From Chloroflexaceae bacterium (lineage in GTDB: Bacteria; Chloroflexota; Chloroflexia; Chloroflexales; Chloroflexaceae), in assembly GCA_028282325.1 (NCBI GenBank), contig JANQID010000005.1:1-33403 (forward strand): 33,403 bases of DNA, in the 5' to 3' direction. A program made the position numbers and the translations under genes. The notes beneath the pieces were generated by a model, which ran no database searches, was not told the DNA's origin, and saw nothing but the letters and a program-made list of their open reading frames with translations. Position 1 is the first letter of the stretch, and each line of letters opens with the position of its first letter. This document shows positions 1 through 22,454 of this stretch, one piece after another.

Positions 1-144
1 ATCGGTCGGAGCCTCGGCTTCAACAACAACCGCCGCTTCCGCTTCGACATCGGTCGGAGCCTCGGCTTCAACAACAACCGCCGCTTCCGCTTCGGCATCG
101 GTCGGGGCCTCGGCTTCAACAACAACCGCCGCTTCCGTCTCAGT
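1..144 (-). repeat. Three 48-bp tandem repeats inside the left-edge coding region
   Basis: Units at 1-48, 49-96 and 97-144 are nearly identical; differences are confined to a few bases, mainly at the end of each unit. Each encodes 16 residues in frame, so unit-number changes would preserve the reading frame. The array may continue beyond base 1. It has no spacers and is coding, so it is not a CRISPR array. Confidence 0.9.
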
Positions 145-315
145 GGCGGCCTCGGTTTGAACTTCATCCGCCGATTGAACTTGAGCTTCAGTTGCTAATT
201 CCGGGGCTTCTGCATTCCCCACTACGGCCTGAGCCGTTGGAGCTTCAGTTGCATCGAGCGATTGAGCGAGCGTTTCGCTCTCGGCAACCGTCTCCATACG
301 TTCCTGATCGATCAT
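1..315 (-). CDS. N-terminal part of an Ala/Glu/Val-rich repeat protein, cut by the window edge
   Basis: I do not recognise this protein. Only its first 105 residues are inside the window, and the frame is open to base 1. I chose the ATG at 313-315 because AGGAGG (326-331) lies 10 nt upstream of it; the in-frame ATG at 322-324 would leave only 1 nt of spacing. The product begins MIDQERMETVAESETLAQ and is rich in Glu, Ala, Val and Thr, with no cysteine and no membrane segment. From about residue 58 it becomes tandem 16-residue units of the type EAEAAVVVEAEAPTDV, and these are still going at the edge. Such acidic low-complexity stretches are usually disordered linkers or N-terminal extensions ahead of a folded domain, but here the folded part is out of view. 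The gene lies 110 nt downstream of chlD on the same strand and could share its transcript. The function cannot be assigned. Confidence 0.7.
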   Translation of the reverse strand, partial: MIDQERMETVAESETLAQSLDATEAPTAQAVVGNAEAPELATEAQVQSADEVQTEAATETEAAVVVEAEAPTDAEAEAAVVVEAEAPTDVEAEAAVVVEAEAPTD

Positions 316-425
316 TGCCAACATCCCTCCTGCGTGTGCTTGCGTTCCGATGTATACCTCAAATCTCTACATCTCTCTGCCAATAATCCTGCCCAATCCA
401 CATCCGACGAAGATTATCATTATCG

Positions 426-1448
426 TCAGCGTCGCATTTGCGCCTGAACTGCCCTGACCAATCCCATATCGCTCAAATCTTCGAGGCGATAGTAGCTTCC
501 CTTAAGACGCTCCGCGAGTTTACGCGATAAACCCCGCTCGAAGTTGGAATGCTCAGTATCGATAACAATCGCTTGAATCTGTTGCTCGGCGATAAAGTCA
601 GCGATTTTGTAAGCCTCTGACTGCGGCGGCATATTGCCAATCGCGACGTTTGCCTGACCATCCGTCAAAATCACCAGCAACGGCAAGATCTCAGCATCGT
701 GGAGGCGCGCGCGTTCAAGCAATTCGTAACCGGTAAGCAACCCTCGTGCAAGCGGCGTTTTCCCGCCGGTCGGCATAGCTTGCAAACACCGCCGCGCCAG
801 ATCGACACTATTCGTGAGTGGCAATAAAATACTGGCATAATCACGCTGAAAACTCACCAGGCCAACCTGATCGCGCCGTTGATAAGCGTCACGCAATAAC
901 GATAGCACCGCAGCTTTTGTTGCGCGCATTCGCTCTTCGGTAGCCATACTCCAGCTTGCATCGACGACAAAGCAAACTGCGTTGCGGGTGCGTCGCACCC
1001 GTACTTTCTGACGCAGATCATCGCGTCGAAGCAGAACACGTGGCTGCCGTCGCGGCGCGTGCATATGCTGCTCGCCCGATGCGCTCCGCCTATCATCTTT
1101 GTCTCGTTGAACGCGGCGTATTTGTTGATACGGCGCTGCCTCGCGCAGAGTCGCGTCAAATGCCAGATCCGTCACCCGACGTACCCGCTGGCTGGTGATG
1201 TAGCGTCCCCGTTTACGCAGCGTGCGCGTCCGACTGCGCCGCCCTGGCGCGCGGCGTTGCTGACGATCCGCCTGACTTTCAAGGCGGCGAGTGCGGAATA
1301 CCTCGTTTGATTGATATATCTTGCCGCTATTTTGCTCGTTTTCCGCGGCTTCGCGTCCGCCAGCTAATTCTGTCGCAGCGCCGGCGGCGGCGCGGCTTAT
1401 CTCAGGCGAACTCTGATCATCGGTGGTTGCGTCACTTACCGGATCTTT
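426..1448 (-). CDS. chlD: von Willebrand A (C-terminal) half of ChlD, expressed by -1 frameshift
   Basis: This is the C-terminal half of the medium AAA+ subunit of a magnesium/cobalt chelatase. The frame is open from the A-run at 1446-1454 to the stop at 426. It runs through an acidic linker, then a basic segment containing RGRYITSQRVRR, then DLAFDATLREAAPYQ (both typical of the ChlD middle), then a vWA domain with the MIDAS motif DASWSM and later TGGKTPLARGL and LTDGQAN. The only usable start in this frame (GTG at 1173-1175) has no Shine-Dalgarno sequence and would discard the conserved RGRY segment. I therefore read it as continuous with the upstream ATPase ORF through a -1 shift, giving a 703-residue protein, a normal ChlD length. 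In the family, the vWA domain couples the ATPase ring to the large chelatase subunit (ChlH or CobN). An alternative is a simple inactivating indel, but both halves look intact. Confidence 0.8.
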   Translation of the reverse strand, partial: KDPVSDATTDDQSSPEISRAAAGAATELAGGREAAENEQNSGKIYQSNEVFRTRRLESQADRQQRRAPGRRSRTRTLRKRGRYITSQRVRRVTDLAFDATLREAAPYQQIRRVQRDKDDRRSASGEQHMHAPRRQPRVLLRRDDLRQKVRVRRTRNAVCFVVDASWSMATEERMRATKAAVLSLLRDAYQRRDQVGLVSFQRDYASILLPLTNSVDLARRCLQAMPTGGKTPLARGLLTGYELLERARLHDAEILPLLVILTDGQANVAIGNMPPQSEAYKIADFIAEQQIQAIVIDTEHSNFERGLSRKLAERLKGSYYRLEDLSDMGLVRAVQAQMRR

Positions 1449-2536
1449 TTTTTTACTTCGTCGCCTTGTAGTGTATCGACCGATTTGTCGATCATCTGGA
1501 ATGATTGTTCCAACACTGACGCAATCCGCATTTCGTCAATGCTCACATCGGCAAAAGGTTGTCGCCGCATACGATGCGGCAAAGCCAACTCAGCCGCCAG
1601 ACGCAGATCTTCAACCGTCAGCGCTGTATGTCCAGACCATGCCGCGTGGGTGCGCGCGGTTTCCAGAATTGTCAGATCGGCGCGATGGCCATCAACTCCT
1701 AGATCGAGAGACAGGGTGGCCACAGCCGCCATATCCTGCCGCACTACCTTCACATGCGGCAATAACTCGCCGGCAGTAACAATTCGCGCCGCCAATTCTT
1801 GCTCGGCGCCTTGCCATTGCGCGACGAAGCCCTCGGGATCGGTCTCAAAGTCCATCCGGCGTTCAATAACCGCCACACGGCTAGCGACATCAGTCAGACC
1901 CGTAATCTCAACTGCCAGGCCGAAGCGGTCAAGCAACTGAGGACGCAATTCCCCCTCTTCAGGATTCATCGTGCCGACCAGGATAAACCGCGCCGGATGC
2001 GACACGCTGATCCCCTCACGCTCAACCGTATTGACTCCCATTGCCGCGGCGTCGAGCAACAGATCAACCAGGTGATCGTCAAGCAAATTTACTTCATCGA
2101 CATAGAGCAACCCACGATTCACCTGAGCCAACAACCCTGGCTCAAAGCGACGTTGACCCTCAGTAATTGCATGTTCGAGATCCAGCGAGCCAACGACACG
2201 ATCTTCAGACGCCGATACTGGCAACTCCACCAGGCGAATTGGACGATCCACCGTTGGAAGCACATCATCGGTATCGCGATGTGAGCGACAGATTGAACAC
2301 AACCCTGCCGGCTGATCGGGGCTACAACTATAGAGGCAATTGGCTACGACGGTGATCGAAGGCAGCAGCCGAGCCAGTGCGCGTACCGCCGTAGACTTGG
2401 CTGTTCCCTTCTCGCCGCGAATAAGCACACCGCCGATACGAGGGTTTATCGCATTAAGAATAAGCGCTCGCTTGAGACGCTCTTGACCGACCAGGGCACT
2501 AAACGGGTAGAGAGGGCGAAGAGGCGACATGACCAC
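1436..2536 (-). CDS. chlD: Mg/Co-chelatase AAA+ ATPase: N-terminal half of ChlD, or ChlI-like small subunit if unshifted
   Basis: This is an AAA+ ATPase of the ChlI/ChlD/CobS type (366 residues in the zero frame). ATP hydrolysis by its ring drives metal insertion by the large subunit. Visible are Walker A GEKGTAKST (41-49), Walker B LLYVDEVNLL, the family strings PVSASEDRVVGSLDLE and HPARFILVGTMNPEEGELRPQLLDRFGL (split here as two runs around LVG), and a cysteine insert with Cys67, 71, 80 and 83 (CxxxC-x8-CxxC). From memory, that insert is commoner in cobalt-chelatase-associated homologues than in photosynthetic BchI. The GTG at 2534-2536 is preferred over the ATG at 2528-2530 because GGAGG lies 11 nt before the GTG. 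The zero frame ends two codons after an A AAA AAG heptamer, so unshifted ribosomes would release an ATPase-only protein resembling the small subunit. Whether it serves bacteriochlorophyll or cobalamin synthesis cannot be decided here. Confidence 0.9.
   Translation of the reverse strand: MVMSPLRPLYPFSALVGQERLKRALILNAINPRIGGVLIRGEKGTAKSTAVRALARLLPSITVVANCLYSCSPDQPAGLCSICRSHRDTDDVLPTVDRPIRLVELPVSASEDRVVGSLDLEHAITEGQRRFEPGLLAQVNRGLLYVDEVNLLDDHLVDLLLDAAAMGVNTVEREGISVSHPARFILVGTMNPEEGELRPQLLDRFGLAVEITGLTDVASRVAVIERRMDFETDPEGFVAQWQGAEQELAARIVTAGELLPHVKVVRQDMAAVATLSLDLGVDGHRADLTILETARTHAAWSGHTALTVEDLRLAAELALPHRMRRQPFADVSIDEMRIASVLEQSFQMIDKSVDTLQGDEVKKKIR
1445..1467 (-). other. Probable programmed -1 frameshift signal in chlD
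   Basis: On the minus strand a run of nine A (1454-1446) is followed by G (1445). This creates the dnaX-type heptamer A AAA AAG in the zero-frame phase. Zero-frame codons are GTA AAA AAA AAG ATC CGG TAA, with the stop at 1438-1436. A -1 slip on AAA-AAG continues as GAT CCG GTA AGT into the vWA frame. An SD-like AAGG (1467-1464) sits 12 nt upstream of the heptamer, a spacing similar to the stimulator of E. coli dnaX. I see no strong stem-loop directly downstream. Transcriptional slippage on A9 is an alternative that would give the same products. Confidence 0.75.
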
Positions 2537-19634: not shown

Positions 19635-22454
19635 CTACAGGTTATCCAGGCAGGCTTGAAGTCGACGCAGACCTGCGCGCACATCCGCGCCGAGGTGGAA
19701 GCCGATGACGTTGCGTTGATTGTCCAACAACGCCTGGCGATCACCCAATGCCTGAGAGGCTATCAGCACGCCGAAACTCATCGATGACGCAGCCACGCCG
19801 GCCTCGTCGGGAATGGCGGCATCCTCGCGCGGGTCGTCGGTCACCTGGATAAACAGCCCATTGCCAGCGTCGCCCTTGTGAAGCTGGCCGGTCGAGTGCA
19901 GGAAGCGTGGCCCGTAGCCGACCGTCACCGCCAGGCGCAAGCGGTCGCGCAACGCCGCCCGTAGATCCTGTAGCGCGACGGTAGTTTCCATCGTCGGCGT
20001 CACGTAAGCTTGAATCGCGATGTAGCTCCGTCCCGCGCCGCTCTCTGCGTCGCCGGGGCTGTGGCAAGCCAGAAAGTCCTTCAGCGCCGCGTCGAGCGAC
20101 GTCGCCGCCGCGTCGGTGTATACCGTGACGCCATCAACCTCCAGCGTCGGCGCAAGCGCGGGCAGCTTGCCCTCCTGATGATAGGCGGCGACCATCTTGC
20201 GCGCCAGCACCTTGGCCGACTCAACGTTGGGTTGATCAAACGGATTGATGCCCAGCCGCCGCCCGGCGATCGCCGTGGCGATTTCCCAGCGCAAGAACTC
20301 GCCGCCCAGATCATAGGCGCTGTCCAGATTGAATTGCACAACTGGATAGCCCGCCGCACGCAGCTCTTCGCACGCGGTGTCGTAGGCATCGTCGCCCTCC
20401 ATGCGCAGGTAGACGAAAAGCCGGTCGGGACCGTAGACATCGACCGAACCCAACGGCTCGTCGGCGACAGGCAACACCCCTACGCCCTCCTTGCCCAGGC
20501 TCTCGGCGATCAACTGCTCAGCCCATCCGCCGAACGCGGCAACAGGCGGTGAAGCAAGCAGAGTGAGCTTGTCACGTCCAGCAACCGCCAGTTCGCCCAT
20601 AATCGCGCCCATCCACACGCCGGTATTTTCACCCGCAGCGGCGGCGTTCGGGTTGCCGCAGTCGCCCGCCATCGCACGTGCATTCGCCAACAACGCGGCA
20701 ATTTCTACGCCGATCAATGCCGCCGGAACCATACCGAAGTAAGACAGCGCCGAATAGCGTCCGCCGATATTCGGATCGTTCAGGAAAACCTTGCGGAAGT
20801 GATACTTCTGGGCCGTATCGACCAGACCACTGCCTGGATCGGTGATCGCGACGAAGTGCTTGCCGGCTTCCGCCGCGCCAAGCGTATCCGCCACGCGATC
20901 GTAGAAATACTTGAAGAACGAGAAGGTCTCGACGGTGCCACCCGACTTGGTTGAAACGATAAATAGCGTCCGCGCCAGATCAAGCTGGCGGTCATATTCC
21001 AACACCGCGCCGGGGTCGGTGCTATCGAGCACCGCCAGGTCCAGATAACCATCCGCGACGCCGAAGGTCATGCGAAAGACTTCGGGGGCAAGACTGGAAC
21101 CACCCATACCGAGCAGCAGAGCATGGGTATAGCCCGCAGCGCGCACTTCATCCACCAGAGCCGTAATCTCCGCAATGGCCTCGACCATCACATCGGGGCT
21201 GTGGAGCCAGCCCAGGCGATTGGTGATCTCGGTCGGTTCAGGCTTCCAGACCATATGGTCGTGCTTCCAGATCCGCTCAATGATCTTCTGTTCCCGCAGA
21301 TCGTTCAGCGCGGCGTCAACCGCCGCCTGATATGCGCCGAGACTAGCTGTGGCACGGCGGCGGGCGGCGCGAATCTGCTCCAGCTTGGAACTCAAACCAT
21401 CCATCAGGCTCTCGAACGACTCGGCAAAAGCGGCTACACCTTCAACCTGCAACTGCTCGGTAACTGCATCCAGGTCAATGCCAAGATCGGCAAGTCGGGC
21501 GATGCAGGCTTTATCCTGTTTCAGCCCGGCTTCCAGCGTCGCCGCGACAGAGCCATGTTCGCGGAAGGCGGACAGCGTCGCTGGAGGTACGGTGTTGACG
21601 GTGTCCGGGCCGATCAGGTTGTCAACATAAAGCGTGTCGGAATAGTTGGGATTCTTGGTTCCGGTGCTGGCCCAGAGCGGACGTTGCACACGCGCGCCTT
21701 GCACTGCCAGTCGTTTCCAGCGCTCGCCGGCGAAGATCTGTTTGAAGCGAGCGTAGGCCAGCTTGGCGTTGGCGTTAGCAATCGTACCCAGCAAATCGCT
21801 CGCACCTTTGGCTTCAAGCGCTTTATCGACCTTGGTATCCACCCGGCTCACGAAGAATGAAGCGACCGAGGCGACCTTGCGCAGATCGCCGCCGGATGCC
21901 GCGAGTTGTTCCAGACCACTGATATAGGCTTCGGCGACCGCTTCATAGTGCGCCAGGGAGAAGATCAGCGTCACGTTGACATTTACGCCGGCAGCGATAG
22001 CCGCCGTTACTGCCGGCATACCGGCAGGCGTCGCCGGAATCTTGATCATCACATTCGGTCGATCCAGCATAGCGAACAGCCGCTTCGCCTCGGAGATAGT
22101 CCGTGTGGTGTCGTTCGCCAGCAACGGGCTAACTTCCAGGCTCACATAGCCATCGACGCCGTCGGTGCGGTCATAGACCGGACGCAGCAAGTCGGCGACG
22201 CGTTGAATATCGCTGATCGCCAGCGTCTCGTAGATCGCATCAGTCGGCAAATCACTGACAGCAAGTTGGTGCAACTCTGTATCGTAATCGGAGCTACCGG
22301 TGATAGCTTTGTCAAAAATGGTCGGGTTAGAAGTAACGCCAGTCACGCCGGCGTCGATCAACGCTTTCATCTCGCCATGGTCAAGCAGCGCCCGCCGAAT
22401 ATTGTCATACCACATCGATTGGCCGAGCTGATTCAGTGCGTGCAGTTTGGTCAT
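19635..22454 (-). CDS. Bifunctional transaldolase / glucose-6-phosphate isomerase
   Basis: This is a fusion of two sugar-phosphate enzymes, 939 residues. The N-terminal part (about 1-365) is transaldolase: GVTSNPTIFDKAI, the Schiff-base Lys138 in NVMIKIPATPAG, and VNVTLIFSLAHY. The C-terminal part (about 385-939) is phosphoglucose isomerase with the SIS-fold string ALLLGMGGSSLAPEV, STKSGGTVET and the isomerase signature IGGRYSALSYFGM (about residue 563). Transaldolase exchanges dihydroxyacetone units in the pentose phosphate pathway, and the isomerase interconverts glucose-6-P and fructose-6-P, so the two share fructose-6-P. AGGAG lies 8 nt before the ATG at 22452-22454. Such tal-pgi fusions are known in several bacterial lineages. 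The gene converges on znuB. Confidence 0.95.
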   Translation of the reverse strand: MTKLHALNQLGQSMWYDNIRRALLDHGEMKALIDAGVTGVTSNPTIFDKAITGSSDYDTELHQLAVSDLPTDAIYETLAISDIQRVADLLRPVYDRTDGVDGYVSLEVSPLLANDTTRTISEAKRLFAMLDRPNVMIKIPATPAGMPAVTAAIAAGVNVNVTLIFSLAHYEAVAEAYISGLEQLAASGGDLRKVASVASFFVSRVDTKVDKALEAKGASDLLGTIANANAKLAYARFKQIFAGERWKRLAVQGARVQRPLWASTGTKNPNYSDTLYVDNLIGPDTVNTVPPATLSAFREHGSVAATLEAGLKQDKACIARLADLGIDLDAVTEQLQVEGVAAFAESFESLMDGLSSKLEQIRAARRRATASLGAYQAAVDAALNDLREQKIIERIWKHDHMVWKPEPTEITNRLGWLHSPDVMVEAIAEITALVDEVRAAGYTHALLLGMGGSSLAPEVFRMTFGVADGYLDLAVLDSTDPGAVLEYDRQLDLARTLFIVSTKSGGTVETFSFFKYFYDRVADTLGAAEAGKHFVAITDPGSGLVDTAQKYHFRKVFLNDPNIGGRYSALSYFGMVPAALIGVEIAALLANARAMAGDCGNPNAAAAGENTGVWMGAIMGELAVAGRDKLTLLASPPVAAFGGWAEQLIAESLGKEGVGVLPVADEPLGSVDVYGPDRLFVYLRMEGDDAYDTACEELRAAGYPVVQFNLDSAYDLGGEFLRWEIATAIAGRRLGINPFDQPNVESAKVLARKMVAAYHQEGKLPALAPTLEVDGVTVYTDAAATSLDAALKDFLACHSPGDAESGAGRSYIAIQAYVTPTMETTVALQDLRAALRDRLRLAVTVGYGPRFLHSTGQLHKGDAGNGLFIQVTDDPREDAAIPDEAGVAASSMSFGVLIASQALGDRQALLDNQRNVIGFHLGADVRAGLRRLQACLDNL

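Follow-up and report, generated by a model that had tools for sequence, protein, structure and literature searches.

The window, by which we mean the whole 33,403-nucleotide stretch of DNA analysed here, is contig C116 of a 4.62-Mb genome that comprises 140 contigs and is 99.98% complete. Its minus strand carries a chlD-like gene whose two halves lie in different reading frames on either side of a run of nine A nucleotides. The features of this gene and of its surroundings are as follows.

1436 to 2530, minus strand: zero-frame ORF (ATG at 2530) for a 364-aa AAA+ ATPase, ChlI-like by its profile matches; the short product
2288 to 2338, minus strand: four-cysteine insert CLYSC...CSIC in the ATPase
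1464 to 1467, minus strand: AAGG, Shine-Dalgarno-like, present here and not conserved
1446 to 1454, minus strand: A9 run, putative slippery site; a run of A7 to A11 stands at the junction in 78/78 orthologue loci
1436 to 1438, minus strand: zero-frame stop TAA, two codons past the AAG and 7 nt after the run
1432 to 1434, minus strand: third-frame (+1) stop TGA at offset 11 after the run, which closes the remaining frame
426 to 1445, minus strand: −1 frame with a linker and a von Willebrand A (vWA) domain, the C-terminal half of a 701-aa product
945 to 962, minus strand: vWA motif DASWSM, read from the sequence
1 to 324, minus strand: next gene downstream, start only, cut by the contig end

Read along the minus strand from 1470 to 1436, the junction is TACAAGGCGACGAAGT, then nine A, then GATCCGGTAA, which in the zero frame gives GTA AAA AAA AAG ATC CGG TAA. 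Two heptamers are in phase at this run, A_AAA_AAA (1454-1448) and A_AAA_AAG (1451-1445), the second being the signal of the dnaX type. Repeating one base of the run, equivalent to a −1 shift, yields a single product of 703 aa (701 aa from the ATG at 2530) that ends at the −1 frame stop at 426-428, and removing one base yields 367 aa and no long product. An alternative zero-frame start, GTG at 2536, would extend the short product to 366 aa. The original prediction for this DNA had described the ATPase and vWA ORFs in frames 0 and −1, the nine-A run with its in-phase heptamer, and the stop two codons on, all of which we confirm. It had also found no credible independent start for the vWA part; the first start codon past the last stop in that frame is a GTG at 1175, about 90 codons beyond the run and by eye without a Shine-Dalgarno sequence. 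We take the DASWSM motif to be the metal site (MIDAS) of the vWA family.

To judge by its position, the truncated gene at 1 to 324 would encode the RNA-binding protein with an S1 domain found downstream of chlD in relatives, and a similarity search with it returned no match. Head-to-tail repeats, seen by eye at about positions 1-150, encode an Ala/Glu-rich stretch within this start of the downstream gene. All 80 loci of one set of relatives were tabulated by frame, and 22 of them were inspected in detail at the linker. In 22 loci viewed for their neighbourhood, several of which are too short to show neighbours, mreB lies beside chlD in 7 and the downstream protein is present in 11, with an S1 domain in all 5 scanned of these 11. 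Elsewhere in the window, positions 19638-22454 hold a 939-aa ORF in which a transaldolase domain and a phosphoglucose isomerase domain are combined.

Magnesium chelatase (BchI/BchD/BchH) and cobaltochelatase (CobNST) share an AAA+ small subunit and an AAA+-vWA medium subunit, and the two halves of the window gene resemble these parts. Scored separately, the ATPase half reaches 498 bits and the vWA half 257 bits (positions 367-641) against TIGR02442 (putative cobaltochelatase), whose cut-off is 779. The ATPase half also scores 440 bits against TIGR02030 (BchI), for which the cut-off is 467, and covers positions 1-334 of the 337 in that model. In Pfam, it matches AAA_lid_2 and Mg_chelatase, and the vWA half matches VWA_2 and VWA. 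Among solved structures, only those of ChlI (6l8d, 8osf) and the 38-kDa Mg-chelatase subunit (1g8p) gave matches at 1e-10. Judged by this coverage, the predicted short product is a complete ChlI-like module that ends where the module ends. The window gene nevertheless differs from BchI and BchD, because both halves fall under the curated cut-offs for those proteins, the ATPase carries the four-cysteine insert, and no large subunit is seen adjoining the gene. A pattern for the insert matches 70/78 orthologues and does not match this genome's bchI, its bchD, or a second ChlD-like paralogue on contig C60.

Using protein P0001 as the query, we searched 41 genomes of the family and 82 of the order and read the junctions by script. 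An orthologue locus was obtained from 78/82 order genomes; G048 gave no match, G053 and G057 gave only distant paralogues, and G062 gave only a fragment. These loci fall into two states, although the counts are not independent since the genomes are related. The short-default state, in which the zero frame stops and the vWA domain follows at −1, occurs in 38/78 loci including the window. An equal number (38/78) are long-default, having one continuous frame in which the run is retained, and the remaining two (G017 and G020, both in f1, the window's family) are undecided. By family, the short-default state accounts for 8/8 loci in f2, 5/5 in f3, 22/24 in f4, and 3/41 in f1, and the long-default genes belong to f1 (36) and f4 (2). 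Runs of A8 to A11 occur in 68/76 classed genes. In every short-default gene, the zero-frame stop lies 3-10 nt past the run, and in 22/38, including the window, it lies at exactly 7. The third frame is closed within 17 nt in 58/66 genes with at least eight A (background 17%), as opposed to 0/8 genes with A7. These stop-placement statistics leave out G066, whose class rests on a contig end, and G019, which has an upstream frame break; the comparison of long-default stops with recoded sequences, given below for 36 genes, omits these two as well.

Given this pattern, the window gene is very probably a case of programmed recoding of the frameshifted-chlD kind, predicted to make a short and a long protein by way of its A9 run. 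Standard reading would produce the short ChlI-like ATPase. A slip at the run, whether a one-base backward step of the ribosome or the insertion of an extra A by RNA polymerase, would open the vWA frame and give a long, ChlD-like ATPase-vWA protein. Both products would carry the ATPase module, and they presumably co-assemble as ChlI and ChlD do. Most Chloroflexaceae would show the mirror state, with the long protein made by default and the short one by slipping, so that the same two proteins result. From the observed frames, the run and its conservation, the two states, and the placement of stops, we infer that slipping takes place in vivo, and likewise its frequency and the joint assembly of the products. 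The suggestion in the original prediction that two products arise from one gene at the A-run is thus upheld at the level of sequence, given the run in all 78 loci and the completeness of the short module. Of the features that it proposed to align among homologues, the run is kept and the AAGG is not.

Exact A9 occurs four times on the two strands of the 4.6-Mb genome, and there is no longer A-run; the only other homopolymers of at least 7 nt within the window are two A7. Two of the three other A9 runs lie, by eye, at frame junctions of transposase-like ORFs, and the third is outside any ORF of at least 80 aa, a 172-aa frame ending 26 nt before it. At one locus (L205, C80:2380-2388), the A9 appears by eye to be at a −1 junction in a helix-turn-helix transposase-like ORF. 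At another (L206/L234, C103:29626-29634), an IS3-like element has A9 at its orfA/orfB junction with orfB at +1 (or −2) instead of the usual −1, and the same arrangement with orfB at +1 is found in four other genomes (L235, L236, L238, L239). The other four of the nine IS3-like loci comprise an A8 element that is fused (L237), an A8 element at −1 (L240), an A7 element with a doubtful −1 (L242), and one with no orfB (L241). In four plasmid IS3 relatives, the site is a T-run and orfB lies at −1, and these relatives are uninformative for the A9 question. The idea that A9 is a general under-call of A10 was evaluated on these nine loci, five of which have A9 with orfB at +1, and was rejected.

A sequencing or assembly error of this type at the window gene itself, with a true run of A10 and an unbroken frame as in most Chloroflexaceae, is an unlikely explanation. 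In its favour, a single extra A would make the gene continuous, and 36/41 family genomes are long-default. That one missed A would suffice, and that the window species sits among long-default relatives on a long branch of unsure position, are also points against the recoding interpretation as stated for this gene. However, two other family genomes (G004 and G038) share the short-default state, with A10, although these are drafts that are 85% and 81% complete. The stop at 7 nt matches the short-default format described above, and if the gene is read as long-default, its −1 stop falls at offset 11 of the present numbering, whereas relatives have theirs within 2 nt in 32/36 cases. In addition, the A9 of this genome's IS3 element is matched by A9 in four copies from other genomes, and A9 here is therefore not generally a shortened A10. 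Even an A10 gene would keep the run and the nearby stops and would still be a candidate for two products.

Another route to two proteins, which we rate as very improbable, is that the vWA part is made separately by re-initiation or from an internal start, with no frameshifting. Consistent with this, some start codon (ATG, GTG, or TTG) precedes the conserved C-terminal part of the vWA frame in 35/38 short-default genes, and the GTG at 1175 in the window could yield 249 aa with the entire vWA domain. In G020, moreover, a same-frame stop is followed at once by an ATG. A start with a Shine-Dalgarno sequence is found in only 2/38 short-default genes, however, and the GTG of the window is about 270 nt beyond the run. 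Separate initiation also accounts neither for the A-run nor for its retention in continuous relatives. The G020 arrangement (L136; L053) is an in-frame TGA after the A-run with the vWA domain in the same frame after GGGGGG ATG, and represents either a draft error or a re-initiation variant.

Marginally less credible still is a decayed gene or a phase-variable homopolymer switch, of which a single-base change at a homopolymer is a classic sign. Against this, both halves are otherwise open, and a run-bearing orthologue locus is present in 78/82 genomes. The split state is also uniform in f2 and f3, which indicates neither decay nor switching in those families.

Among the results that would count against it, the original prediction had listed an unbroken frame in close relatives that lack a conserved heptamer. 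Continuous relatives do exist, but they retain the run, and they place their stops in a distinctive manner. The junction of a long-default gene reads, for instance, GTA AAA AAA AAG NCT GAN, with a −1 stop one codon past the run. To estimate how often such stops arise by chance, codons for the same amino acids were redrawn according to the codon usage of each gene. A −1 stop within 2 nt after the run codon is present in 32/36 long-default genes compared to 5.7 expected, a +1 stop within 10 nt in 25/36 compared to 9.1, and both in 22/36 compared to 1.2. In 31 of the 32, the −1 stop overlaps the final base of the codon next to the run; this base is always T, and the codon specifies Ala, Pro, Ser, Gly, Asp, or Leu. 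The −1 stop is TAG or TAA instead of TGA in G018, G039, and G040, and it appears only at 11-14 nt in G005, G022, G023, and G056. Outside the order, long-default genes with A-runs have their first −1 stop at 26 (L068), 19 (L091), 20 (L092), and 10 (L114) nt.

This conservation of both the −1 stop and the A-run suggests that the continuous relatives are not plain fusions and that a seemingly normal, fused gene may be recoded too. Genes of this type are easily missed in searches for recoding. If they are recoded, the long-default genes double the number of such genes in the order, adding 38 to the other 38.

Additional evidence comes from the run itself. Under synonymous resampling of 75 genes (G017, G019, and G020 were left out), a run at least as long as the observed one arose in a mean of 10.0 genes. 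A Val or Leu codon standing directly before the Lys codons has A as its third base in 57/59 genes, the exceptions being G006 and G056, compared to about 7% of the Val and Leu codons in the remainder of the same genes. The A_AAA_AAG heptamer does not require this third-position A, and run length itself therefore seems to be under selection, although these counts, too, come from related genomes and are not independent.

The distribution of the two states raises the question of how often they have interchanged. Quick trees require five state changes, both with 78 rows and with 74 rows (leaving out G017, G020, G026, and G066), and the sister genomes G004 and G005 are in different states. The row for the window is short-default, its neighbours are long-default, and its branch is long and of unsure position. 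We also considered whether the long-default state arose only once in the family. The best quick trees, with their five changes, do not show this, but a tree with the long-default genes of the family as one clade is not rejected (p-AU 0.203), and the number of flips is therefore uncertain. On balance, we lean towards the view that polarity has flipped in evolution, such that the run, both products, and the point at which the short protein ends have been kept and the slip-dependent product has been inverted between lineages.

Within the recoding interpretation, we give even weight to slippage by RNA polymerase, as in Thermus dnaX, and slippage by the ribosome. Long runs, a pair of tRNA-Lys, and closure of the third frame are about as compatible with polymerase slippage as with ribosomal frameshifting. 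Points in favour of the polymerase are the run lengths of most classed genes and the closure of the third frame in most long-run genes but in none with A7. The genome also carries tRNA-Lys CUU and UUU, a situation linked to polymerase slippage in Thermus dnaX in the consulted part of PMC5009743. Ribosomal stimulators are not evident. No downstream stem-loop is conserved in the 60-nt stretch after the run in 75 genes (mean z 0.31 and 0.04 for the two states), the window having a z of 0.79 and four single genes falling below −2 (G021, G024, G049, and G063). An upstream Shine-Dalgarno or AAGG sequence is likewise not conserved in these 75 genes, its occurrences being scattered, with G004 and G050 also having one near the same place. 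The AAGG noted in the original prediction is present, but a role as a stimulator finds no support in conservation. Finally, the IS3 copies with A9 and orfB at +1/−2, in this and four other genomes, would not be served by a simple −1 ribosomal shift, and they suggest polymerase slippage in these hosts.

Other observations favour the ribosome. The long runs also contain in-phase A_AAA_AAN heptamers, and the remaining IS3 copies are fused or have orfB at −1. Relatives of the Herpetosiphonaceae type and from Anaerolineae have A7 or A8 only, and the A7 lineages probably depend on the ribosome. In reporter work on relatives in E. coli, as described in passages of PMC3711429, shifting was 63%, 40%, and 10% for A11, A9, and A7. 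These values speak for recoding at such runs in general, and the one for A7 counts against a requirement for polymerase slippage.

Frameshifting in chlD is already published. The frameshifted chlD genes (fs-chlD; Antonov 2013 / 2020, Kuznetsov 2022) have the same ATPase and vWA ORFs in frames 0 and −1 with a poly-A site at the overlap, and they yield a small and a medium subunit from one gene as proposed here, although here there is no CobN. In the sections of PMC3711429 that we consulted, Herpetosiphon is already in the fs-chlD cluster, the chelatase protein of Chloroflexus aggregans is called a fusion, and a reversed dnaX is reported. E. coli dnaX, with −1 ribosomal frameshifting at A_AAA_AAG, shares with the long-default relatives the continuous frame, the slippery site, and a −1 stop one codon further along. 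The window gene inverts this arrangement, and it has no conserved Shine-Dalgarno sequence or stem-loop. Thermus thermophilus dnaX, which uses transcriptional slippage at A9, has in common with the window gene the run length, the stops in both other frames, and the two tRNA-Lys (PMC5009743 and PMC3711429, each in part). With nine A and stops at 7 and 11 nt, the window gene has the arrangement typical of that system (at least nine A and close stops in the frames besides the long one), although Thermus dnaX is a different gene and the likeness is one of sequence only. Reversed two-ORF dnaX genes with A7 to A10 in Chloroherpeton and Chlorobium, so far as the excerpts consulted describe them, show both polarities of one gene across lineages, as here. 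The inversion of polarity in chlD seems to be new. A continuous, dnaX-like chlD is undescribed in those parts of the chlD-recoding literature that we covered, although it may be contained in Antonov 2020, which reportedly states that mechanisms may be taxon-specific.

With regard to the metal, the data do not favour cobalt. The original prediction had preferred cobalt over magnesium, citing the four-cysteine insert and a B12-dependent metH in the window. The metH gene is indeed present, but its product uses B12 and does not imply B12 synthesis. Elsewhere, the genome has bchI (584 bits) next to bchD (717 bits), and its two full-length large subunits are of the BchH type by score (1463 and 1539 bits). 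No CobN exceeds the cut-off of 822 in this genome, the same two large subunits scoring 635 and 594, and a cobalt assignment was rejected on this basis. Two partial large subunits at contig ends are 50-56% identical to the second full-length one. The proposal that fs-chlD supplies both cobalt-chelatase subunits, which calls for a CobN and no separate small-subunit gene, does not fit a genome in which no CobN exceeds the cut-off and bchI is present. The existing bchI and bchD also count against the recoding interpretation to some extent, as a second small and medium pair is not obviously needed.

Across the order, CobN exceeds the cut-off in 29/82 genomes, as compared to the 78/82 with a chlD locus. 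In 60/82 genomes, some protein matches the CobN model with an E-value no worse than 1e-100, a count that takes in BchH, and 18 of the 22 genomes without such a match have a chlD locus, bearing in mind that drafts can miss a large gene. Four such genomes (G049, G052, G055, and G078) are 96-100% complete. Because chlD is found without a match to the CobN model, it does not follow CobN, and fs-chlD has also been noted in bacteria without a large subunit, with function unknown, in the part of PMC9227772 consulted. The putative habit of making two products is thereby separated from cobalt.

On C60, the second ChlD-like protein has as neighbours a PduO-type adenosyltransferase and a transporter of the corrinoid type, and a link to B12 is likelier for it than for the window gene. 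The same contig encodes an 860-aa protein (L223:2556-5135) in which a nitrogenase iron-protein-like half (best CfbC/NifH) is joined to one resembling NifD/NifE. The protein after it, of 431 aa, is BchB/NifE-like, and together they form an unusual nitrogenase-like set near B12-type transport genes. This region (L223, C60:63000-81022) has a G+C content of 60-71% in 2-kb steps compared to 57% in the window, and either the DNA is foreign or the contig belongs to a different organism.

If slipping occurs at about 50%, both arrangements of chlD would give about the same product ratio, and a one-base change in the run would be nearly neutral provided that the other frames close at once. Should polarity have flipped as proposed, the Chloroflexus-type chlD, taken as a plain fusion, would be a hidden two-product gene resembling dnaX, and lineages with weak A7 sites could not flip. 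The mirror arrangement, in parallel with that of dnaX, would then offer a clean test of whether slippage at about 50% frees frame polarity in evolution.
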